Below are positions 3,920 to 50,585 of a DNA stretch of 64,000 bases, in pieces. The notes beneath the pieces are model-generated. The model did not search any database, was not told where the DNA came from, and saw only the letters and a program-made list of their open reading frames with translations. The DNA comes from an uncultured Candidatus Saccharibacteria bacterium. Lineage in GTDB: Bacteria > Patescibacteriota > Saccharimonadia > Saccharimonadales > Saccharimonadaceae. The position numbers and the translations under genes are program-made. The stretch is from assembly GCA_946530965.1 (NCBI GenBank), contig CAMNAK010000002.1:248001-312000 (forward strand). The letters are read 5' to 3'. Every line of letters starts with the position of its first letter. Positions within the stretch are counted from its first letter, which is position 1.

Positions 3920-4678
3920 ATGGCAAGCAAGACCAAGAGGAGACTTAGGCGAGTTTTGGCGGTTGTAGGCGGCTTGGCTGCCTTTGTGGCGTATCTGGTT
4001 ATGAATCCAGATATGTACAAGAATTTTATCCCGGGCGAAAACTACAACTTTTTTGGCGCCTCTCAAGTAGATTTGCCGGAAATGAAAGAGTTTCAGACGA
4101 CCGCCGATTCCTTTTTGGCGCGCGATGTTCTAGAGGATTTGGCTGTAAAGGAAAAGAACACGACCGAGAAATACTATCGTAAACTCTTTTACGATAACTG
4201 GGGTATGACTGCCTCTGGTTGCAATACGCGCGAGGCGATTCTGGCTCGAGATTTAAAGAATGTTGTCTCAAAGGGCTGCAAGGTTCAATCTGGAACACTC
4301 GAGGATCCGTATACCGGCAAAACAATCGAATTTACGCGTGGTCAGGAAACGTCTAGCGAAGTCCAGATTGACCATGTTGTTGCTCTAAGCAATGCCTGGT
4401 CGACCGGTGCATATTTAATGGACGAAGAAACTCGCTATGAAATTAGCCAGGATCCATTGAATCTTCTTGCAGTGGATGGCCCGGCAAACCAAGAAAAATC
4501 TGACGGCGATGCAGCTATGTGGCTTCCGTCAAACGAAAGCTTCCGATGCGAATATGTCGCGCGTCAGATATCTGTAAAATATAAGTATCAACTTTGGGTA
4601 ACCCCAGAAGAAAAGCATGCCATGCAGGCTGTGCTCGTAAATTGTCCGACCGAGCCGACGGTTGGCCTAGAAGATTAG
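3920..4678 (+). CDS. Membrane-anchored/secreted HNH nuclease, DUF1524-like
   Basis: N-terminal TM/signal; 'VQIDHVVALSNAWSTGA...DPLNLLAVDGPANQEKSD' matches DUF1524 HNH core. Confidence 0.8.
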   Translation: MASKTKRRLRRVLAVVGGLAAFVAYLVMNPDMYKNFIPGENYNFFGASQVDLPEMKEFQTTADSFLARDVLEDLAVKEKNTTEKYYRKLFYDNWGMTASGCNTREAILARDLKNVVSKGCKVQSGTLEDPYTGKTIEFTRGQETSSEVQIDHVVALSNAWSTGAYLMDEETRYEISQDPLNLLAVDGPANQEKSDGDAAMWLPSNESFRCEYVARQISVKYKYQLWVTPEEKHAMQAVLVNCPTEPTVGLED

Positions 4679-10984: not shown

Positions 10985-11380
10985 TTAGTTGCGATTAGTT
11001 TTGACGTAATCTTCTTCTTTTTCCATTACGGCGCGAAGCTTGTATTTCTTGCAGTGATTATCTTCGTCGCAGTTCTCGGCCTCGTAGCTATAATCGCCAC
11101 CTTCTACCCAGAGGTTAATGCCGTTTGGGTCAGTGAAGAGGTTTGGATCAATCCAAGGAAGCTCTTCGGCGGTCGTGATTGATTCTGGATAATAGCCGTT
11201 GTCTTTGTAATATCCTTCTTCAAGAGCGTAATAGATTGCATTGATAGCGATTTTGCGCTGTTTGTCGCGGTCCATCTTGGCGACGTCTTGCTTTTGTAGG
11301 AAAAATAGCACTACAAAAATGCCAGCAATTACGATACAAATAATAATTTCTAAAACAGTAAAGCCACGCTTATTCTTCAT
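10985..11380 (-). CDS. Type IV prepilin-like protein
   Basis: MKNKRG|FTVLEIIICIVIAGIFVVLFFLQ class III signal peptide. Confidence 0.85.
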   Translation of the reverse strand: MKNKRGFTVLEIIICIVIAGIFVVLFFLQKQDVAKMDRDKQRKIAINAIYYALEEGYYKDNGYYPESITTAEELPWIDPNLFTDPNGINLWVEGGDYSYEAENCDEDNHCKKYKLRAVMEKEEDYVKTNRN

Positions 11381-14726: not shown

Positions 14727-15812
14727 GTGGCTAAGAAAAGTCAGGAAAATGCAGAAGTGGCTGGGGCGGCAGAGCAGACTTCTAAAACTACAAACAAAAA
14801 AGCAGAAAAACCAGCAATGGACGAAGGTAAAAAGCAGGCTCTAAGTCTAGCTCTATCTCAGATTACGAAGCAGTTTGGTGATGGCTCTATTATGAAGCTT
14901 GGCGAAAAGTCCAAGATTGATGTTGAGCTATTCTCGAGCGGTTCCTTGTCTCTAGATTTGGCTCTTGGCGGTGGTTATCCAAAAGGCCGCATCATTGAGA
15001 TTTATGGTCCAGAATCTTCTGGTAAGACTACTCTTGCCCTTCATGCTATTTCTGAGATTCAGAAACAGGGCGGCCAGGCGGCATTCATCGATGCTGAGCA
15101 CGCTCTGGATCCAGCTTACGCAAGAAGGATTGGTGTAGATACTGGCAACTTGCTTATTTCTCAGCCAGACAACGGTGAGCAGGCGCTAGAAATCTGCGAA
15201 ACCTTGGTTCGTAGTGGCGCTGTCGACTTGATCGTTGTCGACTCTGTTGCAGCGCTTGTCCCACAGGCCGAAATTGATGGCGACATGGGTGATGCTCAGA
15301 TGGGCCTTCAGGCTCGTCTTATGAGTCAGGCTATGCGCAAGCTAACCGGTATTATCAGTAAGACAAAGGCTACAGTTATCTTTATTAACCAGATTCGCAT
15401 GAAGATTGGTGTTATGTTTGGTAACCCAGAGACTACGACTGGTGGTAACGCTTTGAAGTTCTATGCTTCTGTTCGTATGGATATTCGCCGCATTGGTCAG
15501 ATCAAGAACGGCGAAGATATTTCTGGTAACCGCACTAAGATTAAGATTGTGAAGAACAAGATTGCTGCTCCATTCCGCACTGCTGAGTTCGATATCATGT
15601 ATAACGAAGGTATCAGTAAGGTTGGCGATGTTTTGGATTTGGCTGTTAAATATGGCGTCATGGACAAGGCTGGCGCATTCTTGAAATACAATGGCGAGAC
15701 TTTGGGCCAGGGCCGCGAAGCTGTAAAGAAGCTCTTCAAAGAAAAACCAGAGCTTATGGAAGAAATCGAAGCTAAGGTTCGCGAAGCTGCTAAGCAAGCT
15801 GAAGAATTGTAA
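14727..15812 (+). CDS. recA: Recombinase RecA (GTG start)
   Basis: [54 protein letters not shown]. Confidence 0.98.
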
Positions 15813-15818
15813 TAACAA

Positions 15819-16562
15819 ATGCTCGAAATAAACACGATTTTTGATGATCTCGGACCAGCGAAAAAGCCTGGAGATAAGCCGGCTCCAAAGCGGAGTATTA
15901 CGGATATAAAACAGGCGGTCCGAGACGAGAATCGTGTGAATATCTATATAGATAACAAGTTTTTCTGCTCCTTGGATATTTCTCAGGTTGTAGATTACCA
16001 TCTGAAGATCGGTAAGGTTTTAACTGAGGAAGAGTTGCAGGATATTCGACGTGCCTCGGATTTTGGCAAGTTCTATTCTAGGGCTCTTGAGTATGTATTG
16101 TCTCGACCGCATTCTGCAAAAGAAATTCGGGACTACCTCAAGAAAAAGACGCTTGATCGCACGGTTCGCGTCAAGAATCGTAAGACTGGTGAGTATCAAA
16201 CGAAGCAAAAAGAAGGCTATGATGCGAGTTTGGTCCCACTAGTTTTTGAGCGCCTAGAAAATCATGGCTATGTCGATGACGAGCGCTTTGCGAGGTTGTG
16301 GGTCGAGAATCGTAATGTCTCTAAAGGTATAAGTGAAAAGAAGCTGAAGCTAGAGCTGCAACAAAAGGGGATTTCTAGTAGTATTATTGAGCAGGTTCTA
16401 GAAGATAATTCTCGAGACGAACGCGAAGAACTTAGAAAAGTAATCGCAAAAAAGGCGAACCGGTATCAGGATAAACAGAAGTTTACGCAATATCTAGTTC
16501 GCCAAGGCTTTAATTATTCGGATGTCTTGGAAGAGCTTCTGGATTTCTTCTCGTCAGAATAG
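15819..16562 (+). CDS. recX: RecX-family regulator
   Basis: Downstream of recA; LEYVLSRPHSAKEIRDYLKKK, LENHGYVDDERFARLWVENR. Confidence 0.88.
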   Translation: MLEINTIFDDLGPAKKPGDKPAPKRSITDIKQAVRDENRVNIYIDNKFFCSLDISQVVDYHLKIGKVLTEEELQDIRRASDFGKFYSRALEYVLSRPHSAKEIRDYLKKKTLDRTVRVKNRKTGEYQTKQKEGYDASLVPLVFERLENHGYVDDERFARLWVENRNVSKGISEKKLKLELQQKGISSSIIEQVLEDNSRDEREELRKVIAKKANRYQDKQKFTQYLVRQGFNYSDVLEELLDFFSSE

Positions 16563-23802: not shown

Positions 23803-23927
23803 GCATAAGCCTTTTCTTAATCTGTAAGGACTAAAAACTATAAAAATAATTTACAAATCAAAAAGCTAAAATTTTACAAATTTCTAGCCAAGGATAGAGT
23901 AAGCTCTAGCATGCTATAATGAGCTAT

Positions 23928-25868
23928 ATGAAAAAGCTTCAAAAGCTTGGGAGAAAAAAGAATCAAAACTCTGATGCTTCTTTTGTTGCCCGAATCAAGA
24001 AGTGGTTTTCTGGGCAAAGCGAAACGAAGCGCTATTATTTTTGCAGCATCATTGCGCTGCTTATTTCTTCATTGTTTCTAACATGGTTCCTTGAGTATCG
24101 TTACTTTATTAACGATATGTATCGTGCTTGGAGCTTTGCGCTTACTGCGTCGCTGGCTTTCTTTTGTAATGCACTAATTGTATTTACTGTTTTACTAGCT
24201 CTCTGGGCAATCGTAAACCGACCTCTTGCCGTCGTGGCTGTTGTTTGGGTGCTCGAGAATATTCTTGGCTATATCCACGTTAATAAATTCAATACCAGAG
24301 GCTACCCGCTTCTTCCTGAGGATTTTCAGCTTGCAGAGCAGGCGGGTAGTTTAGCAAAGTTCATTAATATTGATGGTCTCATTCGTCTAATTCTGTCCTG
24401 CGTCCTAATGGTTGTAATCGTTCTTCTTTTTGCGCATTTCTTCGAAAAGAAGCTTCATCTAAAGAATCCTAAAGAAGGCAAAACATTCCTCGGAAGACAC
24501 CAGATTGCATCTCGCGCACTAGTTATGCTGATTGCTGTAACGAGCTTTATGTATGTTACTGAATTTGCAAGACACAACTCTGGCGATAAATACGAAGAAA
24601 CTCCAATCGGAACCTACTTTACGGCCTGGAATCAGAATCGTAACTACGACGAGAATGGCTGCATCGTTGGCTTTTTGTATAACATTCAAAAGCTCAGTCT
24701 AAATGCTCCTGATGGTTACAATGAAGATTATATTAAAGAAGTTGCCGAGAAATACACTACAATCGCAGAAGAAAAGAATCTCGATCGCAAAGATCCAGCA
24801 AAAGAGAATGTGAATTTTGTTGTTATCCTAAACGAATCATTCTATGATCCTTCAGTAGAATTTAATGGCGTTAAATTCTCGGATTATTATCCATATACTG
24901 GCGGCGACGTAACTCCTAACCTTCATAGAATCCAGCAAAAATGTCCAAGCGGCAAGATGTATTCTATTGATTATGGTGGTGGTACGGCGAATATCGAGTT
25001 TGAAACTTTGACTGGCTATTCAAACTACTGGCTCGCCTCCGTTCCGTATACTGCAATCATTCCGAAGCTAAAATCCGTTCCGTCGATTGCGAATGATTTG
25101 AAAGAAGATGGCTATAATACGACTGCAATCCACCCATTCAATGGTGGCATGTATAAGCGCAATATCTCGCTCGAAAAAGAAGGTATCAATAACTTCATTA
25201 CCGAGTCGGAGATGACTTATACGGAGCATGATGGTGAATCTGAGTACATCAACGATAGATCCGCCTATAATGAACTCCTTAAAAACCTTAAAGAGAGCGG
25301 CGATAGACAATTCATAGCACTTATCACAATGCAGAATCATACGCCATATAACGATTGGACTTATGAAGAAAATAAGTACAAAATCACCGACGAATCTATC
25401 GACGAAGAAAACCGAAAACAGATCGAAACCTACTTCCAGAGTCTACATAATTCAGACAAATATCTTGGGGAATTTATCGACTCGCTAGATAGGATGGATG
25501 AAAAAGTTGTCGTTCTGTATTTTGGTGATCATTCCGCTGGCCTGTTCGAAAAACTCGCAAACAGTGATGATAAAAAATTGGTCGACCTTGCGCATGTAAC
25601 CCCATATTTCGTCTATGCAAACTTCGATATAGGGGTAGGAAACAAGAAACTCCCTACTACCTCGCCGAACTGCATGGTAAATACTACTCTAAATATCTTG
25701 AACTGGCAAAAATCTGCAAGATATTACATGTTGGACTCCGTCTGTAGTGAAGCGCCAATTCTTGCGCCGACCTATCTAGAAGATGGTGCGCCGGAGACAG
25801 AAATCTTAAAAGAATACGAGCTTACAATCTATGATATCCTTGGTGGCGAGCGCTACTGGTTAGAATAA
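23928..25868 (+). CDS. LTA synthase/sulfatase-family membrane protein
   Basis: N-terminal TM helices then NFVVILNESFYDPS, YGGGTANIEFETLTGYS, VVLYFGDHSAGLF. Start moved from 23919 because that ATG overlaps the TATAAT box. Confidence 0.88.
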   Translation: MKKLQKLGRKKNQNSDASFVARIKKWFSGQSETKRYYFCSIIALLISSLFLTWFLEYRYFINDMYRAWSFALTASLAFFCNALIVFTVLLALWAIVNRPLAVVAVVWVLENILGYIHVNKFNTRGYPLLPEDFQLAEQAGSLAKFINIDGLIRLILSCVLMVVIVLLFAHFFEKKLHLKNPKEGKTFLGRHQIASRALVMLIAVTSFMYVTEFARHNSGDKYEETPIGTYFTAWNQNRNYDENGCIVGFLYNIQKLSLNAPDGYNEDYIKEVAEKYTTIAEEKNLDRKDPAKENVNFVVILNESFYDPSVEFNGVKFSDYYPYTGGDVTPNLHRIQQKCPSGKMYSIDYGGGTANIEFETLTGYSNYWLASVPYTAIIPKLKSVPSIANDLKEDGYNTTAIHPFNGGMYKRNISLEKEGINNFITESEMTYTEHDGESEYINDRSAYNELLKNLKESGDRQFIALITMQNHTPYNDWTYEENKYKITDESIDEENRKQIETYFQSLHNSDKYLGEFIDSLDRMDEKVVVLYFGDHSAGLFEKLANSDDKKLVDLAHVTPYFVYANFDIGVGNKKLPTTSPNCMVNTTLNILNWQKSARYYMLDSVCSEAPILAPTYLEDGAPETEILKEYELTIYDILGGERYWLE

Positions 25869-27479: not shown

Positions 27480-27584
27480 TAATACGAATCAGAAAATCCT
27501 GCAGAAATGTGGGATTTTTTGTTGCTCTGACAGGCTGGTTCTCGGCTTTATAAATGGTAGCGCTTATGCTAAAATTAATATAAG

Positions 27585-28298
27585 ATGTCAGAATTAGAGG
27601 GTGAGAATAAGGTCAAAGACACAAACATTTCTTTTGATTCCTCGAAAATTGAAGATAATGATAAAAGCGAACTCTTCACAAAAATCGAGGGCGAAGAAGC
27701 TAGGAAAGCGGCCGCAGAGAGAGCTGCAAGATCCAAGCACGAAAAAGATATTAAAGAAAAAGCCAAAGAAATAGAAGACTCAAAGAAGCTCGACGAAAAA
27801 CTCAAGAAAGCAGAGAAAGAGTCGAAGAATTATGATGGCAAGAAAAAGAATAAGGTTCTAGAATTTTTCTTTGGTGGATGGCACAAGTGGGTGTTTGTTG
27901 TTGTGGTTCTTATTGTTCTCTTATTGGTTATTGTCGCGTTCTATTTCTTGAAAGACAGGAGAACTGCCGTAGAGCGAGCTAGCGAAAAAGTGGAAGCATT
28001 TAAAAGCTCTTGTGAAAGCGAAAAACAGGAAAACGGTTTTTGTTTCAGCTCTGTTGATGACATTGAAAATTACATAGAAAACGAAAACGATCAAGATGCA
28101 AAAACCGAATTACTAAAAAACTATGAAGAATATGTTATGTCGGAGTTCGGTGATGCTGGAAGAGTAAAAGCGTTTTTGGACAGAAATATTCCAGAAAAAT
28201 TAAGCGACCAGAACAGACAAACGCTTTGCGATGTATATAGTAATCTATATTATGAATCGGACAACTGGGAGGAATATGCAAAAGATTGTGAACTCTAG
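27585..28298 (+). CDS. Small single-TM protein, paralog of 32120-32815
   Basis: Charged cytoplasmic N-term with ISFDSSKIEDNDKSELFTKIEGEEARKAAAERA, one TM, extracytoplasmic helical tail with Cys. Confidence 0.75.
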   Translation: MSELEGENKVKDTNISFDSSKIEDNDKSELFTKIEGEEARKAAAERAARSKHEKDIKEKAKEIEDSKKLDEKLKKAEKESKNYDGKKKNKVLEFFFGGWHKWVFVVVVLIVLLLVIVAFYFLKDRRTAVERASEKVEAFKSSCESEKQENGFCFSSVDDIENYIENENDQDAKTELLKNYEEYVMSEFGDAGRVKAFLDRNIPEKLSDQNRQTLCDVYSNLYYESDNWEEYAKDCEL

Positions 28299-31200
28299 AA
28301 CTAATATAAGGATGACGGTTGCCCTTGCGCTATCTTTTGCTGGGGTGCTTGCCTGTTCGTCGTTAGTTTTTGGTGAAACTCAGAATGCTGATGGTAATTC
28401 AGAGAACTGTAATGGTTCTAGTATTGATTATGCTCCGAATTCGGCCAATGTATGTCAATCGGATACGACAACGTCTTATAGGTTTTCTAGGTGGGTTTAC
28501 TATACTATAAATACAGACAATCTTCCTACTGAAAATGGTAAAAAATATATACCTCCGATTGGTATAGCTAACAAGGGCAACGGTATTGCTGATAGTGGTG
28601 TGGATGGATGGCTTGTGGTAGAGCCGGCTATGTCTGATTGTATTGTTGAGAACGGTGGTTTTTGGAGAAGAGGATACTTTCAGAAGAAAAATGATATCTA
28701 TCAGGAAAGGAGTTATAAGGGCTTGACTTTTGGTGTAACGCAGAAAGGCGTTGCACCAGTAGGCTTTACGGGTAGATCTAGCAATAACATTAGTAGCGCT
28801 AATGAAGTCGGCCATAATGATTCTAGTCACACTGTAGGAGAATGGTACCCGACATTTAGTCTTGGTGAACAGACATTGTATGTGGGCGATAAGACCAAGG
28901 TTTGGGCCAAAATGGACACAAGTGCTGGGATGATAGATGATGCTGAGGCTCAGAACAGACTTAATGAATTTGCTAATTCTGGCAATCCTGAGACATTAGA
29001 CTACGGTGACTATTTCTTAAGCGACTATGATAAGAAAAATTATGGTGATGATGATTCGAGTAACGCTACAGTTCTTTTCTGCTACTCCGATATATCTCCG
29101 TTTGATGGCGTGGTTAAGATTGGTAGTGACGGATCGAATTATGCGTACAATAGCAAAAAAAATGGCGAAAGCAAAGATCAAGGCACATATAAAGACGGCT
29201 CTAAAATCAACAATGATAATACTATAGATTTAGGTGTAGTTAACGATTATGACTACACGCCAGGCTATCTATTGATGCAGGTTAGTAAGGCTAACGATAA
29301 GACTGGAAAAAGCGACTATTCTGCAGTTATGACCCTAAACAATGCAACTAAATATGCCTTTGATGGCTCGAATTGGACTAGTAAGGATCAGGCAATCGAA
29401 AATACGACTAGTTCGACCGTAACGTCGTCTACGAGCCCTAGCTTTGTGCTGGAAAAGGGAGATAATACAATCTGTATAGCGCTTGATTATAAAGAAAAAC
29501 AGAACGATAGCAGTGCTCAAAAATTGAAAGCATGTGCTAAGGTGAAATACGTCCCTCTAATCGCTACCGAAATCGATTCTAAGACTAGTGCTGTAGTTAG
29601 TGAAGGATCAAAATCTGGAGTAAGCGACCCAGATAATGGCGAAGCTGGCAATCCTGGTATCGACGCGAATGTTCCGTATGGCAAGAATGTTACTGTAAAC
29701 TGGAAACATTCTTTGGGTATCAAGAGGGTTGAAAAAGATGACGACAAACATGTTGCTCTTGATCCTCTAATGGGTAAATTTATAGTAAAGTACGCAAAAC
29801 TTGGCGAATCATGGGCGACGAGTGGTTTGTCGAAAGAGCTTAGTAGTGGCACATATAACAGTGGTCTAGATGATTTTAACGTAGATGATCTATATGAAAC
29901 AGATAATGTAAAGCTCCTTCCAGGAGATAGAAAAGAGCTGCTAAGAGGTATTGCTCATCCTCAGACGGTCAAAAACGACTCGACTGCAACATCTACAGGT
30001 AATGAATCATCCTCGCTTAAGGTAACTTTGACTGCCGATACTGTAAAGTGCGCGATTAATGACAAAGATATTGGCGTAAATAATCCAGATAACTATGCGA
30101 AGATGTCGCTTTCTGTTAGCGCGACTTACAAGTCTCGTACCGTAGGTGACGGTGTCGATGATAGCGGCAATCCATACCCTAGTAGCTCGACCGTTTGGTT
30201 GAAGGGTAACGATAAGATTAAAAAGTTTAGCTATAGTATCTGTGACGGTGCTCAGATTGCCAAGGATAGAGCTTGGTTAGATAGTAATCCTTCGGTTACG
30301 GATTGGACGAGCGCAAGCGTTACTAATCTTGATAAATTCGAGATCTCGATGAACCCTCTGAACAATAGCCTTAACGGAAGGTTATACAATACGAACTATA
30401 ACGGACTAACTCCGGCGACTAGTATCAAGTTGTCTGGCGTAGAGGGTAAAAGCATCCGAGCCGATGAAATCGGAGATAATAAATATCTTCAGGCTCGCGT
30501 AGATGCTGGTTATCAACTTGAAGATCAGAATACGGTTGCTGCTACGGAAGCAAGTTATCAGCTAGGTCAAACTATCGAGCATAGCATTAGCTTCCAGACA
30601 AGCAATAATGATGCTACCGTAAAAAAGTACTCCATCACGACAAAGGTTCCGTACAACTATATTATAGATCCGGGTTTCGATCAGTTTGATGGCAGTTCAA
30701 TCTATTATGGCGAAGATATTAGTGCAGTCTCTAATGTAAAAGTGAAAGGACGAGTAAACGAAGATACGGGCGCTACGGCTACGGATACTCCTACGCTTAC
30801 AAAAACAAGCAAGTATTATACTGCTATCTTTACGCTCGATGCAGGTAAAAATCACGATGATCTTTTGAATGGTATATCTGCCAGCGGCGCAACTCGTATG
30901 AAGGATAGTTTCGGAAAAGAAACAAGAGATTTCTATATCCAATCCGATGATGAATTTGAGAACATCGTGAATAATCAAATTGGCGGTACAGTAGTTGCGA
31001 GGACAACCGAAAAGGATGGTACTGCCACTACGAAGGTTGGCGAAGGTGTTGCGGTTAGCGTGGGTACGAAGTATTGCGCTGTTACTGCTGTTTGGCCTGC
31101 AGATAGCCATAACGACATGAATGTTACGGGCGATTCTGTAATCGCATCTGGCAACCTTCAGACGAACGCATTGATCGGGGATAATCCCGGTACTGGCGCA

Positions 31201-32052
31201 TACTGGCGCTTTGAGATTAGCTGTAGAACGCTAGGCAAAAAGCCTACCGTAAGCGTAGAAGGTTCTGGTATTGTGTCTGGCGGCGGCGTAATTACTTCGA
31301 CCACAAATTATGGCGGAAATATCTTTGGTTCTTGGTCTGAATATGGCCTAATTGCGGATAATAGTACTTCGGTTAACTTTGGTACTGGCGCCAGCTTGGC
31401 ATATCATGGTCCACAGTACTCTGTTAACGAGCAGGCTATTCCGTCCGAAGCGGGCTTAGACAAGAATGCGAAATGTATCGGCATTGAAACGGTAGGTAAT
31501 ATTAAATGTCTAGAGCAAGTTGGCCTAGATACATCTGAAGTTGACCAGTATGTTACTAATGCAAATAATATTAAAAGCCGGATAATAGGCAAGAATAATA
31601 TTTCTAAGCATAATGGCAGTTATGTTATTAATAGTAATGTTAGTAAAAACGCTGACGGCTCAACCCCGATAATCTATGCGGATAATATCAAGATTCATCC
31701 AGATGTTACGGAGATAAATGCGATTCTTATTGCTGATGACAATCTAGACACCTGTTACTTAGAAGACAAGCAAGACGAGACTACGCAGGGTGGAACTAAG
31801 GGCAACTCTGGTCTTAAAGATCTATGCGGCAAGCAGCTTGTTGTAAATGGTGCAGTGTTTGCGGATAGTATTGCTCTTGATCGTACCTTTGGTGGCGGTA
31901 GTTATGGAGACAACTTGTGGGTGCCAAGTCTAGTTCAGCGCGCTGAAATCTTTAACTTTGATCCATCCTATGTTTCGGAAGCTTACGAACAGTCTTTGGA
32001 GGAAGACCCAATTACGACTACTTATATCAAAGAACTTCCATCTCGCTACTAG
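28276..32052 (+). CDS. Giant secreted surface protein (about 1258 aa), paralog of 32802-36596
   Basis: SD gggagg before ATG 28276; signal peptide MTVALALSFAGVLACSSLVFG; Thr/Ser/Asn/Asp-rich; conserved C-terminal half. Confidence 0.85.
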   Translation: MQKIVNSRTNIRMTVALALSFAGVLACSSLVFGETQNADGNSENCNGSSIDYAPNSANVCQSDTTTSYRFSRWVYYTINTDNLPTENGKKYIPPIGIANKGNGIADSGVDGWLVVEPAMSDCIVENGGFWRRGYFQKKNDIYQERSYKGLTFGVTQKGVAPVGFTGRSSNNISSANEVGHNDSSHTVGEWYPTFSLGEQTLYVGDKTKVWAKMDTSAGMIDDAEAQNRLNEFANSGNPETLDYGDYFLSDYDKKNYGDDDSSNATVLFCYSDISPFDGVVKIGSDGSNYAYNSKKNGESKDQGTYKDGSKINNDNTIDLGVVNDYDYTPGYLLMQVSKANDKTGKSDYSAVMTLNNATKYAFDGSNWTSKDQAIENTTSSTVTSSTSPSFVLEKGDNTICIALDYKEKQNDSSAQKLKACAKVKYVPLIATEIDSKTSAVVSEGSKSGVSDPDNGEAGNPGIDANVPYGKNVTVNWKHSLGIKRVEKDDDKHVALDPLMGKFIVKYAKLGESWATSGLSKELSSGTYNSGLDDFNVDDLYETDNVKLLPGDRKELLRGIAHPQTVKNDSTATSTGNESSSLKVTLTADTVKCAINDKDIGVNNPDNYAKMSLSVSATYKSRTVGDGVDDSGNPYPSSSTVWLKGNDKIKKFSYSICDGAQIAKDRAWLDSNPSVTDWTSASVTNLDKFEISMNPLNNSLNGRLYNTNYNGLTPATSIKLSGVEGKSIRADEIGDNKYLQARVDAGYQLEDQNTVAATEASYQLGQTIEHSISFQTSNNDATVKKYSITTKVPYNYIIDPGFDQFDGSSIYYGEDISAVSNVKVKGRVNEDTGATATDTPTLTKTSKYYTAIFTLDAGKNHDDLLNGISASGATRMKDSFGKETRDFYIQSDDEFENIVNNQIGGTVVARTTEKDGTATTKVGEGVAVSVGTKYCAVTAVWPADSHNDMNVTGDSVIASGNLQTNALIGDNPGTGAYWRFEISCRTLGKKPTVSVEGSGIVSGGGVITSTTNYGGNIFGSWSEYGLIADNSTSVNFGTGASLAYHGPQYSVNEQAIPSEAGLDKNAKCIGIETVGNIKCLEQVGLDTSEVDQYVTNANNIKSRIIGKNNISKHNGSYVINSNVSKNADGSTPIIYADNIKIHPDVTEINAILIADDNLDTCYLEDKQDETTQGGTKGNSGLKDLCGKQLVVNGAVFADSIALDRTFGGGSYGDNLWVPSLVQRAEIFNFDPSYVSEAYEQSLEEDPITTTYIKELPSRY

Positions 32053-32068
32053 TCTAGCCTCGAATAAA

Positions 32069-32095
32069 GTGAGCCAATCATGCGTTGGCTCATTT
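32069..32095 (+). terminator. Intrinsic terminator between tandem modules
   Basis: GTGAGCCAA-tcatgcg-TTGGCTCATTTT. Confidence 0.75.
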
Positions 32096-32119
32096 TGCTT
32101 ATGCTAAAATAGTATTAGT

Positions 32120-32815
32120 ATGGCTGAAAATAATCAGGTTAATGGTCAATCGGGAGAGCCTCGCGTCTCTTTTGATTCTGCGAAAATTGCCGAAAAGGAG
32201 AGAGTTGAGCAATTTACTAATATAGCTGGCGAAAAAGAACGCCAAGTGGCCGCCGAGCGAGCGAAAAAAGAGGCCGAGAAAAAACGACAAGCCGCACGTG
32301 ATGCAAAAATCGAGCAAACAATTGAGCTTAGAAAAGCCGAAAAAAGAAGCAAAAAGCCTCTAATTATTATTGGCGCTGCTATAGTTTTGATTGCCTTAGG
32401 CGTTGGCGCTTTTATCTTCTTTAACAACACGCGAGAACAAACAACCGAGGAAAAAATCGCGGCAGCCAAGAATAAAGCTAGCGAGATTGGCTCTTTTGTA
32501 GATGAAAAGACTAGGGCAGAGAATCTGAATGAAGCATACGATCAAATAGAAGAAAAGTTTCAGCAGTCCTTAAGCGATGCTAAGAACGACTATGAAAAAT
32601 ACTATATCTTGATGAAATACGCCTCATTCAAATATACATGTACGAATGATGAAGAATCTATAGCGAGTATTATGGAGCAAATAGATAGTTTAACGTACAA
32701 AGATAATGATATTGAGTATAAATGTAGCGAATTAATGTATCGAAATAATGACGAGGAATGGGTTAGCGAAAATCCAGATATCGTAACGGAGTGTACGACA
32801 GATGAGGCGAGGTAA
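32120..32815 (+). CDS. Small single-TM protein, paralog of 27585-28298
   Basis: VSFDSAKIAEKERVEQFTNIAGEKERQVAAERA, one TM, Cys-containing tail. Confidence 0.75.
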   Translation: MAENNQVNGQSGEPRVSFDSAKIAEKERVEQFTNIAGEKERQVAAERAKKEAEKKRQAARDAKIEQTIELRKAEKRSKKPLIIIGAAIVLIALGVGAFIFFNNTREQTTEEKIAAAKNKASEIGSFVDEKTRAENLNEAYDQIEEKFQQSLSDAKNDYEKYYILMKYASFKYTCTNDEESIASIMEQIDSLTYKDNDIEYKCSELMYRNNDEEWVSENPDIVTECTTDEAR

Positions 32816-35800
32816 TATTACGAAAATAATAGCAGTCTTGCTGTTGCTTGTTGTGTCGGTTTTATCTAGTGAAAAAGCTTTTGCTGGAGGTATTTGGACG
32901 GATAGCGGCTCTGGTTCTGGTAGTGGCGATAGTGGCACCTGGTACGGCTCAACAGATGTTGGCGTATCGTATTTTTGGACGACGGTAGTCGCGTGGTTTG
33001 AGTATACGTACGATGATCCAAATTACGAAGGAGACGCCAGTGTGCCTGGTTTTAGCCGAGGCGGCTTGACGGCCCCAGGTGTTACAGTGCCGGCGGATTG
33101 TGCTAAAGGTTCAACTAAATTCTATAGTGCTGGCGCGGTTGGATATAAAAGGCCTTCGAGCGATATTGGCAAGAACTCTGCTGTCGTTAAATTTTATAGT
33201 GTCAATGGAAATACACAGCAGCTTGGCGTGTATCACAGAGGAAGTACGAGCGATTATGTCGGCGCGACGAGCAAGTCTTTAAGCTATGCATATGATACGG
33301 CATTTACGATTACAGGGAGTACTTGGCCGACATATGTTAATAATAACTATGTGAGCAATCGTGTTGCTACTGGTAGAATTGTGACTTATGCGGAGGCAAA
33401 TGCTGCTTGGAAAGCAGCGCTAGTAAGGCAGGGAGAATCGGAATATGAACTCAGCGCCGCCAAGAATGGCAGTAAAGGCGTAACGACCTTCTGTGCCTAT
33501 GATCAGCTTCCGCCTCCAGGTACGGAGCAAAGTGCTGCCGTGACAATCAATGTAAAAGGCACTGGCGGAGAGGGCTCTAATACCAGCGGCTCTGGCTCGA
33601 CGCCACTTGTTACTGTCAATTCGCCAAAAGTAGATTTTTGGTCGTCTTATGAATATACCAGGGAAGATAGCAGCGATGCAATGAGTTTCTATGCGAAAAT
33701 AAGTGCTTTGAATAGTTCTTATCCAAGTGGGGACGGTACACTTATTTCGTATTCCGCCGAGTCCGCTACAACATCGGCGACTAGTGGCACGGCTTCTTCG
33801 CCTACGAAAATTACTCTTTCGGAGCCGAATAAAGAGTATACTTACTGTTCGTCGACTAAGTATCCGGTAGAAATTACGGATACGGAGAACAAAAAAGTAT
33901 CTGATTCTGATCCGGAAGCTAAAGCTTGTATAAAAGTTAAATGGGATCCAGTCGTATCAAAGATCCAGTCCAAGACTAAGATTAGTGCCGCTGGTAAAAG
34001 CGCTGAATCCGACTGGGATTCTTATGCTGTTTTGGATCTCGGGACTGCGAAGCCAAATGCGGATGAATATAATAAAGGCATCGCGTATGGTTCTAATAAG
34101 TTCAATGTTACTTGGACTCATACTCTTAAAGTCACTGGACAGCAATACTATACGATACTCGAATCTGGGTCGGGTTATGGTGGCATCATCAATAATTCGC
34201 CAGTTAAACTCCATACCAGACCGGCCGATACTGGTTCGCTTGCTGGTCTAGATAAGCAAATCCAGAGCGTTACGCCAAACTCTATACGTACGATTAATAG
34301 CTGGGATTCAAATATCTTTAAGGATTCATCATTGCCATCGAGATACGTAAACGGCAAGATTTCTGAAACCGGGAATATCTTCCCAGGCCAAAAACTCGAC
34401 AGTGTTTCAGAGTTCATTTTTCATGATAGCGAGGTTTATGGTGACCTTAAATCATATAATGGTAACTTTAATGACAAGGAATCTCATGCAGCTCTAACTG
34501 GTGTTGCAAATTATGCAGAATGTAAGCTAACTGGCCCAGAAGGCAAAGACGTTACTTATTACATGGGTGTAGAGGGTGCCGCAAATGACTATGCGGGTCT
34601 CTATCTTGACTCGTCGAAGGGTCGCACTATAGTTGGCGATGGCTCCGACAAAACTACCGATATTGTTTGGCTGAAGGGTGATGGAACTAAGGCTAGTTTG
34701 AATTACGAAGCCTGCTTTGGCGCGCAGATTGCCGAGGATGCTGTAGGGGGAAGTGGTAAAGATTACTTCTTGCTAAATACGAGCAATGAGAGGCTATCTA
34801 ATAAGGTGGACATAAATAATAGATATGGCCTAGATCCATATTATTCGACCGCGGGCCCTATAAGAGACGATTATTATACTGGGCGCACCCCTGGACATAA
34901 TCCGGAATTAAAAAATATTCTTGCTGACGAAATAGGTGATGGCACTGTTAAGGGTAGGCTTGATAATAACTATACGGTTAAAGCGCGTACAAAGGAATTC
35001 GAGCAGCTCGTTCTTTTGGGAAAGAGCAATCTAAGCTATATTGCCAAAACAAACGGCGTAAGCTCTACTCCTAGCGATACATATGCGATAACCATGAATG
35101 TGCCGTATAACTATATTCTTAATCCGCAGCCGGCAGGAGGTAGTATGGCGCAAGAGCTCGGCACGGTCACTGTAGGTACGCCGATCAATTTCAAGGCAAA
35201 AATCGCAGTGTCGCCAAGAAAGAATAAAGACGTTCAGGATAGTGAGTATAGTACGGCTACAAAAACTACTACTATTAAGGCTAACGTCTTTACCGTAGGC
35301 CCTGATGAATCCATTGCAGATATTACGGGAGAACCAGGAGCTACGTATAAAGTATTTAACGTCCATGGTAAAGGACAGGATGCTTCTATCGCTGATTTGG
35401 TTGGCCATAATACCGTGCCGAATGTTGATGATGAAGTTAAGAATGAGTCGATAGGCACTTCTGGTACTACTATAGATACGCCAAAAGACAAGGTCTTTGC
35501 AGATACTATTGGTCAAAAGTACTGCATGGCTGTTGCTGTCTATCCAGCTGATAGTCACAATACAGAGACGACCGATATTGAAAAGAATGCCGATCAGAGT
35601 GTCGCACTAAGCGGTGACAATGCTGGGAACGGTGCTTATTGGCGCGTTTCTATAAGCTGTCGTACGGTTGCGAAATATCCTTCGATGAGCGTGGAGGGTA
35701 ATGCCTTACATGCTAGGGGTGATATCAGGACAACCAAAACAACTGTAAATGGCAATGTGTTTGGTAGCTGGGCAGAATATGGCATTATTGCGGGTTCCTC

Positions 35801-36596
35801 TACTATGGCTTCAGGTGCAACCTTGGCTTATGCTGGCCCACAGTTTGCGCCGAACCTTACAGGTGACGCTGGTGGTGTGCCGATATCTGATATCGTAAAA
35901 CGTCACGATATTGAAAGTATCGGTAATATAGATCCTAACGCTAATGCTGGTACGCCAGAATCTGTTATGGTTTCTGATGAAATCGCTAAGTTCAAAGATA
36001 AACTATCTAAGTATAGATCAGACAGCTGCGAAGGAATGCTTTCTGATGCGGATGGCAAGATCTGCGCCAAGACTGAAAACGGTATCTTTAGGGTTTGGGA
36101 TAACGCAAGTGCGATAGATCTCGAGGCGTATATAAATGGATATACAAACAATGCTGGCGGCTTCGATGTTCTTGCGGTTACGTATAAGGGAACATTAAAG
36201 CTAACCAATGACATTAAGAAAGAGAGTGGCGTCGCAAAGACTCGTCAGATTATTATCTTTGCAGATGATATCGAAATATCTAATAATGTTAAGCAGATAG
36301 ATGCATGGTTAGTCGTCGACGGTAATATTGACACCTGCTCGGAAAAAGACGTTGGCGACCTGACTATAGATGATTGCAATAATGAATTAATCATCAACGG
36401 TGCCGTTGTCTCGGATAGGCTTGAGCTGGATAGGACTTATGGTTCAGAGTCGGAAGGCGGTAATCTAAATGGCAATATTCGCCGTGGCGAAGTCTTTAAT
36501 TTCGATCCTTCAAGTGTTCAATGGGCGTACAAAGAATCTTTGAAGGAATCTAAAACCGAAATTCAATACGTTAAAGAGCGTGCCGTACGTTACTAA
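32802..36596 (+). CDS. Giant secreted surface protein (1264 aa), paralog of 28276-32052
   Basis: Signal peptide MRRGNITKIIAVLLLLVVSVLSSEKAFA; shares YCxxxAVxPADSHN, GAYWRxxISCRT, GSWxEYGxIA, NGAVxxDxxxLDRT(F/Y)G and R(A/G)E(I/V)FNFDPS with its neighbour. Confidence 0.85.
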   Translation: MRRGNITKIIAVLLLLVVSVLSSEKAFAGGIWTDSGSGSGSGDSGTWYGSTDVGVSYFWTTVVAWFEYTYDDPNYEGDASVPGFSRGGLTAPGVTVPADCAKGSTKFYSAGAVGYKRPSSDIGKNSAVVKFYSVNGNTQQLGVYHRGSTSDYVGATSKSLSYAYDTAFTITGSTWPTYVNNNYVSNRVATGRIVTYAEANAAWKAALVRQGESEYELSAAKNGSKGVTTFCAYDQLPPPGTEQSAAVTINVKGTGGEGSNTSGSGSTPLVTVNSPKVDFWSSYEYTREDSSDAMSFYAKISALNSSYPSGDGTLISYSAESATTSATSGTASSPTKITLSEPNKEYTYCSSTKYPVEITDTENKKVSDSDPEAKACIKVKWDPVVSKIQSKTKISAAGKSAESDWDSYAVLDLGTAKPNADEYNKGIAYGSNKFNVTWTHTLKVTGQQYYTILESGSGYGGIINNSPVKLHTRPADTGSLAGLDKQIQSVTPNSIRTINSWDSNIFKDSSLPSRYVNGKISETGNIFPGQKLDSVSEFIFHDSEVYGDLKSYNGNFNDKESHAALTGVANYAECKLTGPEGKDVTYYMGVEGAANDYAGLYLDSSKGRTIVGDGSDKTTDIVWLKGDGTKASLNYEACFGAQIAEDAVGGSGKDYFLLNTSNERLSNKVDINNRYGLDPYYSTAGPIRDDYYTGRTPGHNPELKNILADEIGDGTVKGRLDNNYTVKARTKEFEQLVLLGKSNLSYIAKTNGVSSTPSDTYAITMNVPYNYILNPQPAGGSMAQELGTVTVGTPINFKAKIAVSPRKNKDVQDSEYSTATKTTTIKANVFTVGPDESIADITGEPGATYKVFNVHGKGQDASIADLVGHNTVPNVDDEVKNESIGTSGTTIDTPKDKVFADTIGQKYCMAVAVYPADSHNTETTDIEKNADQSVALSGDNAGNGAYWRVSISCRTVAKYPSMSVEGNALHARGDIRTTKTTVNGNVFGSWAEYGIIAGSSTMASGATLAYAGPQFAPNLTGDAGGVPISDIVKRHDIESIGNIDPNANAGTPESVMVSDEIAKFKDKLSKYRSDSCEGMLSDADGKICAKTENGIFRVWDNASAIDLEAYINGYTNNAGGFDVLAVTYKGTLKLTNDIKKESGVAKTRQIIIFADDIEISNNVKQIDAWLVVDGNIDTCSEKDVGDLTIDDCNNELIINGAVVSDRLELDRTYGSESEGGNLNGNIRRGEVFNFDPSSVQWAYKESLKESKTEIQYVKERAVRY

Positions 36597-36655
36597 AATG
36601 CTTAAGTTAATGTATAATAATAACTATGAATAAAAGGGTGCAAGGCTAATCTTTT

Positions 36656-37597
36656 ATGTCTAGGCAAAAATCTGGCTTTACTATTATTGAGACGATGCTA
36701 TTTTTGGCAATCACTGGCTTGGTTTTTGCTGGCGTAGTTATTGGTACAAATGGCAGTCTTCGCAGCCAGCGTTATCGCGATACGGTCCAGAGTTTTGTGA
36801 ATAGCTTGCGTGATGTGTACTCTCGTGCTGAAAACACAGAGATTATTGACTATGGCAACCAACAGGCGAGATGTGGTTGGTGGAATAATAAGACCTCTGA
36901 CATAAGCGACGCTAATAGTGCTCGCGGAAGAAGTAGATGTGTTGTTTATGGTCTAGCCGTAGCTATTTATACGAATAATGATGGATCTTATGTCATGTCG
37001 TCTCTTCTGGGCGGTTTTGATGAAGCTCGAACGAAGGAAAATCTCAAAAGCACTGATAGTAGTCCGTATGATGATTTGCTTTATTTAAAGCATGCTGGCG
37101 TAAGCGAATTCTTTACCTATGATGCTGACCCTCCGTATAGATGGGAAAGAAAAGGCGAAGTAAAATCAAAACTTCTTTGGGGCGCCAAGGTTCATGTGTT
37201 ATGCAGCGAAGATATGGTATATTCGGGAAAATATGATTCTTGCGAGAGTATAGATGATACTGCTGATAATATCGGTATAGAAATGATTGTTTATCGTTCT
37301 CCGAATACCGGTTCGATTGAAAGTTTTGCTCGTTATACGGGGAATAGTGTTATTAATCCTATAGCTGGCAAGTCCTCTACTACTAATGCAAATGATAGTC
37401 TTATTAAATTTGATGATGGCATAGTGGGAGAACCGACGAAACTAAAACATCGCGATGTCTCATTCTGTATTGAGCCGGGTGATGGTATGAGTAGTTCTGG
37501 TGGCATGCGTATGGTAACGATTGATGGTGACGCTTCTGGCGAAAACGCAGTCCGCCTGATTGAGGCTGATTCGAAGGAGAATAGATGCAACAACTAA
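36656..37597 (+). CDS. Type IV prepilin-like protein (minor pilin)
   Basis: MSRQKSG|FTIIETMLFLAITGLVFAGVVIG. Confidence 0.85.
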   Translation: MSRQKSGFTIIETMLFLAITGLVFAGVVIGTNGSLRSQRYRDTVQSFVNSLRDVYSRAENTEIIDYGNQQARCGWWNNKTSDISDANSARGRSRCVVYGLAVAIYTNNDGSYVMSSLLGGFDEARTKENLKSTDSSPYDDLLYLKHAGVSEFFTYDADPPYRWERKGEVKSKLLWGAKVHVLCSEDMVYSGKYDSCESIDDTADNIGIEMIVYRSPNTGSIESFARYTGNSVINPIAGKSSTTNANDSLIKFDDGIVGEPTKLKHRDVSFCIEPGDGMSSSGGMRMVTIDGDASGENAVRLIEADSKENRCNN

Positions 37598-38514
37598 AAA
37601 AGCGAAAGGCAAATAATAGTAATATCTCGAGCAAAAAGACTCGCTACGGAGATACTATTGTTGAAGCTATTATTGCTATTTCGATTTATTCTATTGTCGC
37701 GGTTCTTGCTCTTAGCATGATGAACAGTGGGCTTTCTCGTGCTCAGAAAAACCTTGAAAGCACGATGTCTCGTCTTGCGATCGATTCGCAATCTGACACT
37801 TTAAGATATATATACGAGGCTTATATTACTGGCCTAAAGAGGGATCGTTCTTCTGAAGGCGATTTCTTTAGGGATGTTTGGAATACGAAAAGGAGTGGCG
37901 CTGCAGGCGCTCTGCCAGCAATGTATACCGTTACTAGCGATTCAGTAAGTAATGTTAATGAAGCTGCTACTTGTGATGAAGCGCTTAAGAATGACCGCGA
38001 AAAGTATCCAGTTTTTGTTTTGAATCCGCGCGCTCTTGCCTCTGTTGTGACTGATAGCGAATGGCGTACTAAAGGCTACTATGGTTTTGGCTCCGACGCT
38101 TTAAGAAGTACTTTGATCAACAACGTAGTTGTGTTCGATAATGGTGGCTATGTAGATGCTCCTTCTTCGAATATTAAAACAACGCTGCTATATCCTAGAC
38201 TAAGTTACAAGACTATGTCGGCCGAAGATGGTTCAGTGGTCAACTCGGATTATGGTATGAATATTCTAGCCGGCAATGGCGGTAAGAGCGGTGTTGTGAA
38301 TGCTGATGGCACTGAAGAATCGACTGTTTATTTGCAATCTAATATTTTGCAACGTTCCGAAGGCGTTTGGGTCTTTGGTTTGAAGCGTAATATTGCTTCT
38401 GATATTGATCAGACTAGCTATGATTTTTATATTCGCACTTGCTGGAATGCGGTTGGTGCTAAAGCTCCGTCGACAACTTCAACAGTAGTCCGTCTTTATG
38501 AGTATGGAGAATAA
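37585..38514 (+). CDS. Prepilin-like protein (minor pilin)
   Basis: TRYGDTIVEAIIAISIYSIVAVLALSMMNSG; overlaps the previous gene by 13 nt. Confidence 0.75.
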   Translation: MQQLKKRKANNSNISSKKTRYGDTIVEAIIAISIYSIVAVLALSMMNSGLSRAQKNLESTMSRLAIDSQSDTLRYIYEAYITGLKRDRSSEGDFFRDVWNTKRSGAAGALPAMYTVTSDSVSNVNEAATCDEALKNDREKYPVFVLNPRALASVVTDSEWRTKGYYGFGSDALRSTLINNVVVFDNGGYVDAPSSNIKTTLLYPRLSYKTMSAEDGSVVNSDYGMNILAGNGGKSGVVNADGTEESTVYLQSNILQRSEGVWVFGLKRNIASDIDQTSYDFYIRTCWNAVGAKAPSTTSTVVRLYEYGE

Positions 38515-38519
38515 TTGAT

Positions 38520-39440
38520 ATGAAGAATAACAAAAAGAAAGCTTTTACTCTTATCGAATTAATGCTTGCGGTTGCCTTCATTGGTACCTTGCTTCTCTCT
38601 GTCGCAATGCTAGCGATGCAACTTGTGAATATGTATACAAAGGGCGTTGCTATGCGCTCCATAAATGCGATTGGCGGAGATATTGCTGACGACCTAAAAC
38701 AAACAATTACTTCTTCTACGAAGTGGAGCAAAACTATCGACCCAGAATATGGCGGTACGTATTACACAAAAGATTTAGTTGAAGATGCAAAAAAAGAATA
38801 TTATGCCTATAGCGACAAAGGCTACGGCATATTCTGTACGAACAGCTATACCTATATCTTTAATTATCAGCCTGCAATGCTAAAATTCCGTGAGCAACCT
38901 GTTGCTATTGATACTGAAGATTACATTTCGATACTTCAAACCGATACTAATATCCAGCGCTCTTATGGCCTAGTTCGCGTAAAAGACCCCTCGGCAACCT
39001 TATGTAATTCTGCAAAAGCTGCCGACATAGATAGCACTAGTACGACCGACTTCTTCTTGAAAGATGATGAGAAGTATAAAAATGTAAAAGATGCTCATAT
39101 TATTCAAGTTGATTCTAAGGATTTGACGATCTTGCTTGATGGCAAAGATAGTAATGACGGTTCTGATCTAGAACTTTATGATTTTTCGGTTATGCATGCA
39201 ACGAAAAATAGTCTAACGGGGCAAGCCTTGTTCAGTGTTAGCTTTGTGATTGGTACGATGCGCGGTGGCATTAACGTTATGAGTTCGAGCAACTACTGTA
39301 GTCAGAAAGCTCAAGAAAATGCAGACGACGAAGTTGCTACGAAAGAAGCTAAAGAAAAAATGGCTAATGTTGGTATGAGTTACTGTGCGGTAAACCGCTT
39401 CGAGGTAACGGTTCGTCAAACTGGTAATGCTGGTATATAA
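38520..39440 (+). CDS. Prepilin-like protein (PulJ/PilW-like)
   Basis: MKNNKKKA|FTLIELMLAVAFIGTLLLSVAMLAMQL. Confidence 0.87.
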   Translation: MKNNKKKAFTLIELMLAVAFIGTLLLSVAMLAMQLVNMYTKGVAMRSINAIGGDIADDLKQTITSSTKWSKTIDPEYGGTYYTKDLVEDAKKEYYAYSDKGYGIFCTNSYTYIFNYQPAMLKFREQPVAIDTEDYISILQTDTNIQRSYGLVRVKDPSATLCNSAKAADIDSTSTTDFFLKDDEKYKNVKDAHIIQVDSKDLTILLDGKDSNDGSDLELYDFSVMHATKNSLTGQALFSVSFVIGTMRGGINVMSSSNYCSQKAQENADDEVATKEAKEKMANVGMSYCAVNRFEVTVRQTGNAGI

Positions 39441-39461
39441 TAGGAACAACTGGAGGTAAAA

Positions 39462-40712
39462 ATGTCGAAAAATAGCAAAACTAAGCAAGGTATGGCGTCT
39501 ATATACATTGTCGTATTTACGACTTTGTTGATTAGCATTATTACGCTTAGCTTTTTGCGCATTATGCTTTCCGAGTCTGGCCGTACTTCCAGAGATACTC
39601 TTTCTGATTCTGCCTACAACTCCGCTCTTGCTGGTATCGAGGATGCAAAAACGGCATATTCCTTATATCAGAAAGCTTTGTCTGGAGATAATAGTGCTGC
39701 GACGAAACAGGCCAAGGACGTTCTTGAGGCGAAAGGTCAACCTGACAGCTATCAACCTGAAAACGACTGTGACTTAGTTCGTAAAGCGTTAGGCGGTACT
39801 GGCTCCTCCGAATATACGATTGATAAAGACATTACTGACCAGGCCTATACTTGCGTATCAATGTCGCTTGAGGGCAACTTTGCAGGTTATATTACAAAAG
39901 ACGATCCTATGCTTGTTGTGCCGTTAAGAAGCAAAGAAAGCATGAGAGCCGATGATGGTAATGCTGACGCTATTAAGGCCGTTAGAATCGTCTGGCGCAA
40001 TCTTGGTAGTGCGAGCACTAACGAAATTCCTAATAGCTATGGATATACTACTGGAGACAACTTGACCGAGAAAGCAGAAGGTATCTTTGGTAAAAAAGGT
40101 ATGAAAGATGATGATTCAGCGGTTAATCTTAATGCTCTAAACGTAATGCTGGTTCAAAAATCAAAGAATTCCGATGCATATTATTATGCCTCTAACGGTA
40201 CGAATACGGATAGAGGCTATCTGACATTAGTTCCATACGAAGATGGCACGGCGAATTATGATAACATAATTGCTGCGTCCGATGTCGTTGCATCTGCCGA
40301 TAAAACTATGAATCAACCGATACCGGTTCACTGTTATACGGGTCAAGATTCTCACTGTGAAGTAGAGATCAAGATGCCGACCCCTATTGGCGGTTTTCCG
40401 CGTGATTCGCAGAACTTCTTCTTGGTCTTAAGCAAGATCTATTCTGATCCAGACCTTGACGTTACCGTAGAGATGCGCGGTGATGACGGAGAGATTAAAT
40501 TCTGGAATGTTCAGCCTATCGTCGATGCTACCGGCCGTGCTGGTGACCTTATGCGTCGTGTCGAGGCACGCCTAGGTACGAAGAATGGTGCTGACCTACT
40601 TCCTACAGCAGAACTCATCGTTGGTGGTAGTGGTGGCATCGAGAAAGACTTCTATGTCACGAAGAACTGTATCAAGGGTGTAGAAGAGTGTGATGATTCT
40701 GGCACAAACTAA
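39462..40712 (+). CDS. PilX/GspK-like minor pilin-type protein
   Basis: KTKQGMASIYIVVFTTLLISIITLSFLRIM...DSAYNSALAGIEDAK. Confidence 0.75.
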   Translation: MSKNSKTKQGMASIYIVVFTTLLISIITLSFLRIMLSESGRTSRDTLSDSAYNSALAGIEDAKTAYSLYQKALSGDNSAATKQAKDVLEAKGQPDSYQPENDCDLVRKALGGTGSSEYTIDKDITDQAYTCVSMSLEGNFAGYITKDDPMLVVPLRSKESMRADDGNADAIKAVRIVWRNLGSASTNEIPNSYGYTTGDNLTEKAEGIFGKKGMKDDDSAVNLNALNVMLVQKSKNSDAYYYASNGTNTDRGYLTLVPYEDGTANYDNIIAASDVVASADKTMNQPIPVHCYTGQDSHCEVEIKMPTPIGGFPRDSQNFFLVLSKIYSDPDLDVTVEMRGDDGEIKFWNVQPIVDATGRAGDLMRRVEARLGTKNGADLLPTAELIVGGSGGIEKDFYVTKNCIKGVEECDDSGTN

Positions 40713-49943: not shown

Positions 49944-50585
49944 ATGTTTAAGAAGCTCAGTAAGAAAAACCTAATCCTGATTCTTTCTGGCTCTGCCATG
50001 CTTCTAGTACTAATCGTTGTGCTTTTTGCAACAATCTTCAAAAAAGACGCTGAGCTTTATGTCTTGGTTGCTCCAAGCACAGCTACAATAAAAATTGATG
50101 GCCACAAGGTAAAAAATGGGCGCGTTCCAATTCGCTCTGGCGAGCATAAAGCTGTCGTATCCGCTGACGGTCTAGAGACAAAAGAACAGAGCTTTACTAT
50201 TTCTAAAGGCGAAACTAAATCTCTAAACCTATATCTAACAGGTCAAAACAATAGCTTTGATTATTACAAATATTATCCAGATGAAATTGAAAACTTGGCG
50301 CTAGTTGCGGATAGCGACGAGGCTACCGAGGCGGTTTCCAAGCTTCGTCATATTGTTACGATCAGAGAATTGCTTCCTTATACGATTGGCTATGATTCTG
50401 GCAGGAAAACTGCAACTTTGAGCCTCGGTGAAAAATGTTCGAAGACTTTCTGTCTCAAAGAAACGGATGAAAATACAGATATGCAAAAGCAAATGCGCGA
50501 AGAAATAAAATCCCTTGGATACAACGCTGACGATTACGAAATAATCTACGAAAGAATCGATACGGTTGAGGCGGAAGAAGAATGA
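49944..50585 (+). CDS. PEGA-domain-like membrane-anchored protein
   Basis: N-term TM; LVAPSTATIKIDGHKVKNGRVPIRSGEHKAVVSADGLETKEQSFTI. Confidence 0.72.
   Translation: MFKKLSKKNLILILSGSAMLLVLIVVLFATIFKKDAELYVLVAPSTATIKIDGHKVKNGRVPIRSGEHKAVVSADGLETKEQSFTISKGETKSLNLYLTGQNNSFDYYKYYPDEIENLALVADSDEATEAVSKLRHIVTIRELLPYTIGYDSGRKTATLSLGEKCSKTFCLKETDENTDMQKQMREEIKSLGYNADDYEIIYERIDTVEAEEE

Follow-up and report, generated by a model that had tools for sequence, protein, structure and literature searches.

Pili are implicated in host recognition by Saccharibacteria and other Patescibacteria, a process that is still poorly explained. The subject here is a stretch of 64,000 nucleotides (nt), called the window (G000:C2:248001-312000), from the ~1.0 Mb genome of a Saccharibacteria bacterium (G000). 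Downstream of rny, eight genes run on one strand (27585-40712): two tandem modules, each encoding a small membrane protein (S1, S2) and a giant secreted protein (G1, G2), and genes for pilH-, pilV-, pilW- and pilX-like proteins. A sequence-only reading of the window had singled out the S1-G1-S2-G2 array at 27585-36596 as possible paired adhesins, and all four open reading frames (ORFs) are present as it described. What do these proteins do, and with which machinery? We found that the S-G pair is part of a class-wide type IV pilus (T4P) operon and that S is probably related to TPR proteins, two points that go beyond that reading. Gene context strongly supports an involvement of S-G in the pilus and moderately supports tip adhesion by G; that G sets host specificity is put forward as a hypothesis only.

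Linkage of the giants to type IV pilus genes

A profile of the C-terminal region of the giants matched 260 of 295 Saccharibacteria genomes (~88%), belonging to 104 of 126 genera. We sampled 40 loci outside the genus solely for having this domain; they come from many families and reach beyond the order. In 35 of them pilM directly follows the giant, usually at a distance of 20-160 nt, and a small membrane protein usually precedes the giant. The gene order of the class is a small membrane protein followed by G-pilM-N-O-(x)-pilB-T-C-A-D-H-V-W-X. Thus, S-G is the unrecognised head of a class-wide T4P operon. The genus and class profiles of G align with a probability of 100 (E 1.4e-51) over 451 columns, reaching the last residue. 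Among genomes sampled from other classes, 77 also have the C-terminal core, which adjoins pilM in several of them; G-like or unnamed secreted ORFs occupy the position 5' of pilM in several classes beyond Saccharibacteria. At one further locus (L150, G062:C2:316102-316836), a G-type C-terminal domain ends an apparent 25,343-aa frame beside pilN, in a stretch that is partly N, so that the length may be an artefact.

Most of the class has the operon in one piece, but in G000 it is dispersed over at least three loci: pilM-N-O-x-pilB at C2:90.8-96.2 kb (L087), pilT-C-A-A-D at C2:55.2-59.6 kb (L088), and S-G with pilH-V-W-X inside the window. Counting G000, 14 genomes of the genus have the module next to pilH, in most cases flanked by rny and pilH-V-W-X, and a locus of another genus (L097) also has it beside pilH-V-W-X. 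The linkage to pilin genes that the sequence-only reading had anticipated is supported. In the split operons S-G stays with the minor pilins and not with pilM-N-O-B, and this gene order is the main reason why we prefer a role at the tip of the pilus over one at its base.

The giants of some 20 further genomes of the genus are mostly 1046-1730 aa long, with an S protein upstream wherever the flank is intact. S-G recurs at all examined congener loci whose flanks are intact, and the pairing of the two genes is thus not due to chance. The pilH locus carries one S-G copy in G002, G018 and G025, two in G000, G035, G031, G015, G014, G006 and G024, and three in G022.

The module genes and their products

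The coordinates of the module genes, their regulatory elements and the adjoining minor-pilin genes are collected in Table 1. Each S gene overlaps its giant, by 23 nt in S1/G1 and 14 nt in S2/G2, the range that had been read from the sequence. The first figure applies to the G1 start at ATG 28276, which we prefer to the mechanical ORF start at 28231 on account of the GGGAGG before it; this Shine-Dalgarno-like site lies within S1. A -10 element only 9 nt from the ATG implies near-leaderless S mRNAs in both modules. Of 23 S genes, 16 have an extended -10 element (usually TATGCTAAAAT) 4-13 nt upstream of the start, compared to none of 26 G genes and 26 of the 208 remaining ORFs (p 9e-9, indicative only since the rows are related). 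Each S-G module looks like a transcription unit of its own.

Table 1 Features of the S-G locus in the window
Feature	Positions	Strand	Description
Extended -10 promoter	27565..27575	+	TATGCTAAAAT; ends 9 nt 5' of the S1 ATG
S1	27585..28298	+	237 aa, single-pass membrane protein
G1	28276..32052	+	1258 aa, giant secreted protein, Sec signal
Hairpin	32070..32092		TGAGCCAA-N7-TTGGCTCA, then TTTT; between G1 and S2, terminator/attenuator-like
Extended -10 promoter	32100..32110	+	TATGCTAAAAT; ends 9 nt 5' of the S2 ATG
S2	32120..32815	+	231 aa, S1 paralogue
G2	32802..36596	+	1264 aa, G1 paralogue, Sec signal (AFA/GG), conserved C-terminal region
pilH/GspH-like minor pilin	36656..37597	+	prepilin motif GFTIIE
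pilV/GspI-like minor pilin	37585..38514	+	motif GDTIVE
pilW-like minor pilin	38520..39440	+	motif AFTLIE
pilX-like membrane protein	39462..40712	+	no GFxxxE motif; unrelated to G

Both giants contain a single hydrophobic segment, at the N-terminus, and no C-terminal anchor, as judged from the sequence, with relatives scanned likewise. Together with the Sec signals, this agrees with their earlier description as secreted surface proteins. G1 and G2 align from residue ~384 to the end with 29% identity (E 5e-67). By region, identity is 16-28% over residues 1-700 and 26-49% over residues 700-1273, highest after residue 900, so that the stronger conservation toward the C-terminus claimed before holds for the two paralogues. 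The C-terminal motifs listed for them are all present, and most are kept across a 30-sequence family alignment. The family signature, which the window giants carry, comprises VPYNY, two Cys pairs, GSWxEY, IDxxLIA..IDTC..C, LxRTxG and a terminal ..ELPxRY; the region runs in G1 from VPYNYI through ELPSRY at the protein end. Upstream of it, G1 contains two tandem related domains (~290-450 and ~480-690; hhalign of profile blocks, probability 99, E 4e-18), which may form a stalk.

Searches of Pfam, NCBIfam and PDB sequences gave no usable match for the giants. We considered whether they are minor pilins, but the class III prepilin signal (GFxxxE) is absent from S1, S2, G1 and G2. A relationship to PilX-like proteins was also rejected (hhalign probability <2%, using the PilX-like family of the window and not TM7x PilX1 itself). 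No G relative was found in viral contigs. The N-terminal modules of class relatives include VWA with DxSxS in two members and CBM60 in one, which would fit a binding function. In some lineages (L111, L119) the N-terminus of G contains a SurA_N-like segment, which may point to a folding or hand-over function associated with the S/G position.

S1 and S2 share 29% identity across 127 N-terminal residues (E 4e-11), including the motif SFDSxKI...FTxIxGExxRxxAAERA noticed before. S1 consists of a charged cytosolic N-terminus with SFDSxKI...FT.IEGE, a transmembrane segment (~94-120) and an extracytoplasmic helical domain of ~115 aa with 4 Cys. The S proteins of the genus are very divergent but keep the cytosolic motif FxSxDI...FVxVEGAExR. 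In many lineages of the class the small protein is a TPR protein: of 32 class S proteins, 13 gave a TPR_2 match (best 6.7e-14), and the extracytoplasmic domain of the genus S proteins aligns to the TPR-bearing class S profile (profile-profile probability 95.8, E 6.7e-9). AlphaFold2 (AF2) predicted helical hairpins, at moderate confidence, in the extracytoplasmic part of S2 (residues ~131-230, predicted local distance difference test (pLDDT) 63-83). Weak Pfam names for S1 and S2 (SLATT_5, DUF4446) and a PilM-like NCBIfam match on S2 were set aside as compositional matches to transmembrane or charged-helix segments. Elsewhere, membrane proteins of ~300 aa take the place of S (L089:5821-6729, L106:12405-13316, L126:6743-7654) and on visual inspection resemble SurA/PrsA; those of L089 and L126 gave no significant Pfam match.

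Three other genes of the window stood out. Just 5' of rny lies a membrane sulfatase-family protein, LtaS-like (23919-25868, +; Sulfatase, E 1.4e-38). The product of 3920-4678 (+), secreted or anchored in the membrane, looks HNH/DUF1524-like (QIDHVVALSNAW) and is possibly an extracellular nuclease. A 607-aa secreted protein (50582-52405, +) resembles a glucosaminidase-type muralytic enzyme.

Duplication and recombination of the modules

A tree of the C-terminal region places at least three separate tandem duplications within the genus: one each in G015, the G000/G035/G011 clade and the G022/G024/G031/G006 clade, and a weakly supported one in G014. A single ancient duplication behind all tandem copies was therefore rejected. 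Two tandem giants of a single genome from a neighbouring genus (L098:6417-15589) are each accompanied by two small membrane proteins rather than one.

The sequence-only reading had pictured divergent tips on a conserved base. This holds between paralogues and is reversed between close orthologues: in comparisons of G000 with G035 and G011, the N-terminal halves of the giants are the better conserved part, and synonymous divergence (dS) is very high in blocks of the middle and of the C-terminal part. Between G000 and G035, identity is 100% for rny, 96-97% for S1/S2, 92-96% for the pilins and 89-90% for G1/G2; the nearest named relative at the S-G locus, the sheep-rectum metagenome-assembled genome RGIG6504, shows 89% identity to G2. 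In 150-codon windows of the giants, dS ranges from 0.07 to 1.54, and the ratio of nonsynonymous to synonymous divergence (dN/dS) is <=0.5 throughout. Residues 601-750 of G2 have a dS of 1.54 compared to 0.1-0.2 in the N-terminal flank. Against G011, dS is 0.74-1.48 (one window saturated) in all four pilins and in G2 from residue ~601 on, with the exception of G2 block 751-900 (0.28); S2 and rnhA lie at 0.2-0.35. With dN/dS this low in every window and dS strongly uneven, positive selection on the tips was rejected, and diversification of the tips as the mode of evolution gives way to segmental recombination under purifying selection. The giants are accordingly recombination mosaics, and the proposed tip genes undergo mosaic replacement.

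In S16M_St_8 (L035:1-7193, compared to window 33400-40712), dS is 0.7-1.5 or more in all four minor pilins and over most of the later G2 sequence, against 0.2-0.35 in S2 and rnhA, which reads as a horizontally replaced pilin cassette.

Candidate roles of the S-G pair

The giants invite comparison with the tip adhesin PilY1/PilC of type IVa pili (PF05567), a family characterised by beta-strand complementation with PilX at the pilus tip and, in many members, by an N-terminal VWA domain. Like it, G is large, Sec-secreted and tied to minor-pilin genes (pilH-V-W-X here and in 13 congeners), with a conserved C-terminus, a variable N-terminus, VWA in some members and several copies per genome; PilY1 of Myxococcota shows the same conserved C-terminus, variable N-terminus, multiple copies and minor-pilin linkage (PMC13190605). 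Unlike PilY1, G lacks the C-terminal seven-bladed PF05567 beta-propeller, has a C-terminal region of another family, is paired with a dedicated, probably TPR-type membrane partner and sits in the pilMNO operon across most of the class. An hmmscan search found no PF05567 match in either giant or in the genus and class relatives, nor did PF05567 turn up when 117 class genomes were searched in six frames, although no control genome gave a match either. The PilY1 slot of the class thus looks empty.

We therefore regard S-G, on balance, as a T4P module in which G would be a PilY1-like but non-homologous tip adhesin and S its dedicated TPR membrane partner, a reading we hold to be somewhat more probable than the others together. 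S, made just ahead of G and translationally coupled to it, would be a membrane-anchored TPR-type protein that holds, folds or passes G to the pilus machine, and the conserved motif of its cytosolic part may bind a pilus component inside the cell. G would be exported by Sec and dock through its C-terminal region onto the tip-initiation complex of the minor pilins PilH-V-W-X. Its two-domain stalk and variable N-terminal part would then be displayed at the pilus tip and bind the host cell or another surface, so that an unrelated protein takes the role of PilY1. In the genus, the ancestral operon S-G-pilM-N-O-B-T-C-A-D-H-V-W-X would have broken up, S-G being kept with the minor pilins beside rny; tandem duplication of the module with its own promoter would then provide two tips (one to three elsewhere) that act as alternatives or are assembled together.

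Several observations weigh against this tip-adhesin reading. At least eight loci carry orphan S-G modules away from pilins (L042, L050-L054, L096, L098), L042 and L050-L054 in the genus itself and others in neighbouring genera. In the ancestral operon S-G adjoins pilM, which would allow a base or envelope role. The S proteins of the window, and other S proteins of the genus, fall below TPR cut-offs, and the Foldseek matches of S2 are not significant (HAT/TPR solenoids ranked top). Structure prediction was poor for the giants: the C-terminal region of G1 (six-row alignment) reached a pLDDT of 41 with no PDB match, and Foldseek was uninformative. The VWA matches lie slightly below the Pfam cut-off in both class relatives, and the window giants have none. 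The adhesin claim of the sequence-only reading is the best one available, though by inference.

The position 5' of pilM lends itself to another reading, which we consider improbable but the most serious of the alternatives: G could be an envelope-level part of the pilus (a pore, collar or cell-wall guide in the PilP/PilQ slot) and S a TPR pilotin-like factor, with no host binding. S-G directly precedes pilM-N-O in 35 of 40 class loci, where partners of pilMNO are expected; near-universal conservation is more in keeping with a structural component than with an adhesin for particular hosts; and TPR pilotins of secretins have precedents in diderms, where the TPR proteins PilF/PilW serve in this capacity. 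S resembles PilF/PilW/Tgl in being a small, probably TPR-type protein tied to pilus assembly, but differs in being single-pass and not a lipoprotein, in its cytosolic motif tail in the genus and in its one-to-one pairing with G. The gene order of the split operons, where S-G follows the minor pilins and not pilMNO, argues against this reading, as do the properties of G: lengths from ~590 to 1730 aa, differing N-terminal modules and 1-3 tandem copies are unlike a pore, and no secretin match was found. Still less probable, in our estimate, is a stand-alone surface adhesin, anchored in the membrane by S and sharing only regulation with pili. The orphan modules distant from pilins, in this genus and its neighbours, would suit it, as would the promoter of each module and the hairpin between the two; chance or shared regulation poorly explains the pilM/pilH linkage across the class and in other classes. 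We give very little weight to the giants as pilus-delivered enzymes that degrade glycans or proteins of the host envelope. They are secreted, large and modular, and one relative has a CBM60 match, but no convincing catalytic family was detected among 24 genus and 44 class members and no sequence relative was found in the PDB. Two class members show weak matches to DUF7305 (PF23981), one within the C-terminal region (684-809 of 870 aa); the matches are below the curated cut-off, and none occurs in the window's own genome.

In cultured relatives, T4P are required for host binding or survival (PMC12206443, PMC10633639). Most T4P genes of Southlakia epibionticum are class I essential (PMC10633639). 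Nanosynbacter lyticus has two T4P: locus one (TM7x_00415-00475), whose pilins are essential, is taken to encode the thick one, and for the thin pilus, T4P-2, PilX2 has been proposed as adhesin (PMC12206443). Locus one represents the same pilus system as described here (pilM-N-O-B-T-C-A-D and minor pilins); the PilX-like protein of the window is unrelated to G. TM7x_00415 is reported as pilM (PMC10768705), and therefore any S-G pair upstream falls just outside the published locus. We found no named tip adhesin for the essential thick pilus, T4P-1, in the literature, and no published description of the S-G pair in main paper texts (supplements and most subscription papers lay outside the search). 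The window also holds, close together, a second PilB-like ATPase (6127-7737, -), an orphan pilin (10985-11380, -) and recA-recX (14727-16562, +), a cluster that resembles T4P locus two of N. lyticus, which is linked to recAX.

Saccharibacteria, which are tiny and parasitic, probably use these pili to seize host cells, and the duplicated S-G pair is an apparently undescribed part of the gripping pili. With its giant in ~88% of class genomes, heading the pilus operon, S-G is a candidate for the missing tip adhesin. It is conceivable, though we would not count on it, that Patescibacteria have a non-PilY1 tip-adhesin system of their own, in which a coupled TPR partner and a giant head the pilus operon, and that the tandem S-G cassettes of ruminant-gut Saccharibacteria, shuffled by recombination, form an interchangeable repertoire of tips that sets host range. 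The tandem, recombining copies of the gut species would offer a natural experiment on host specificity.

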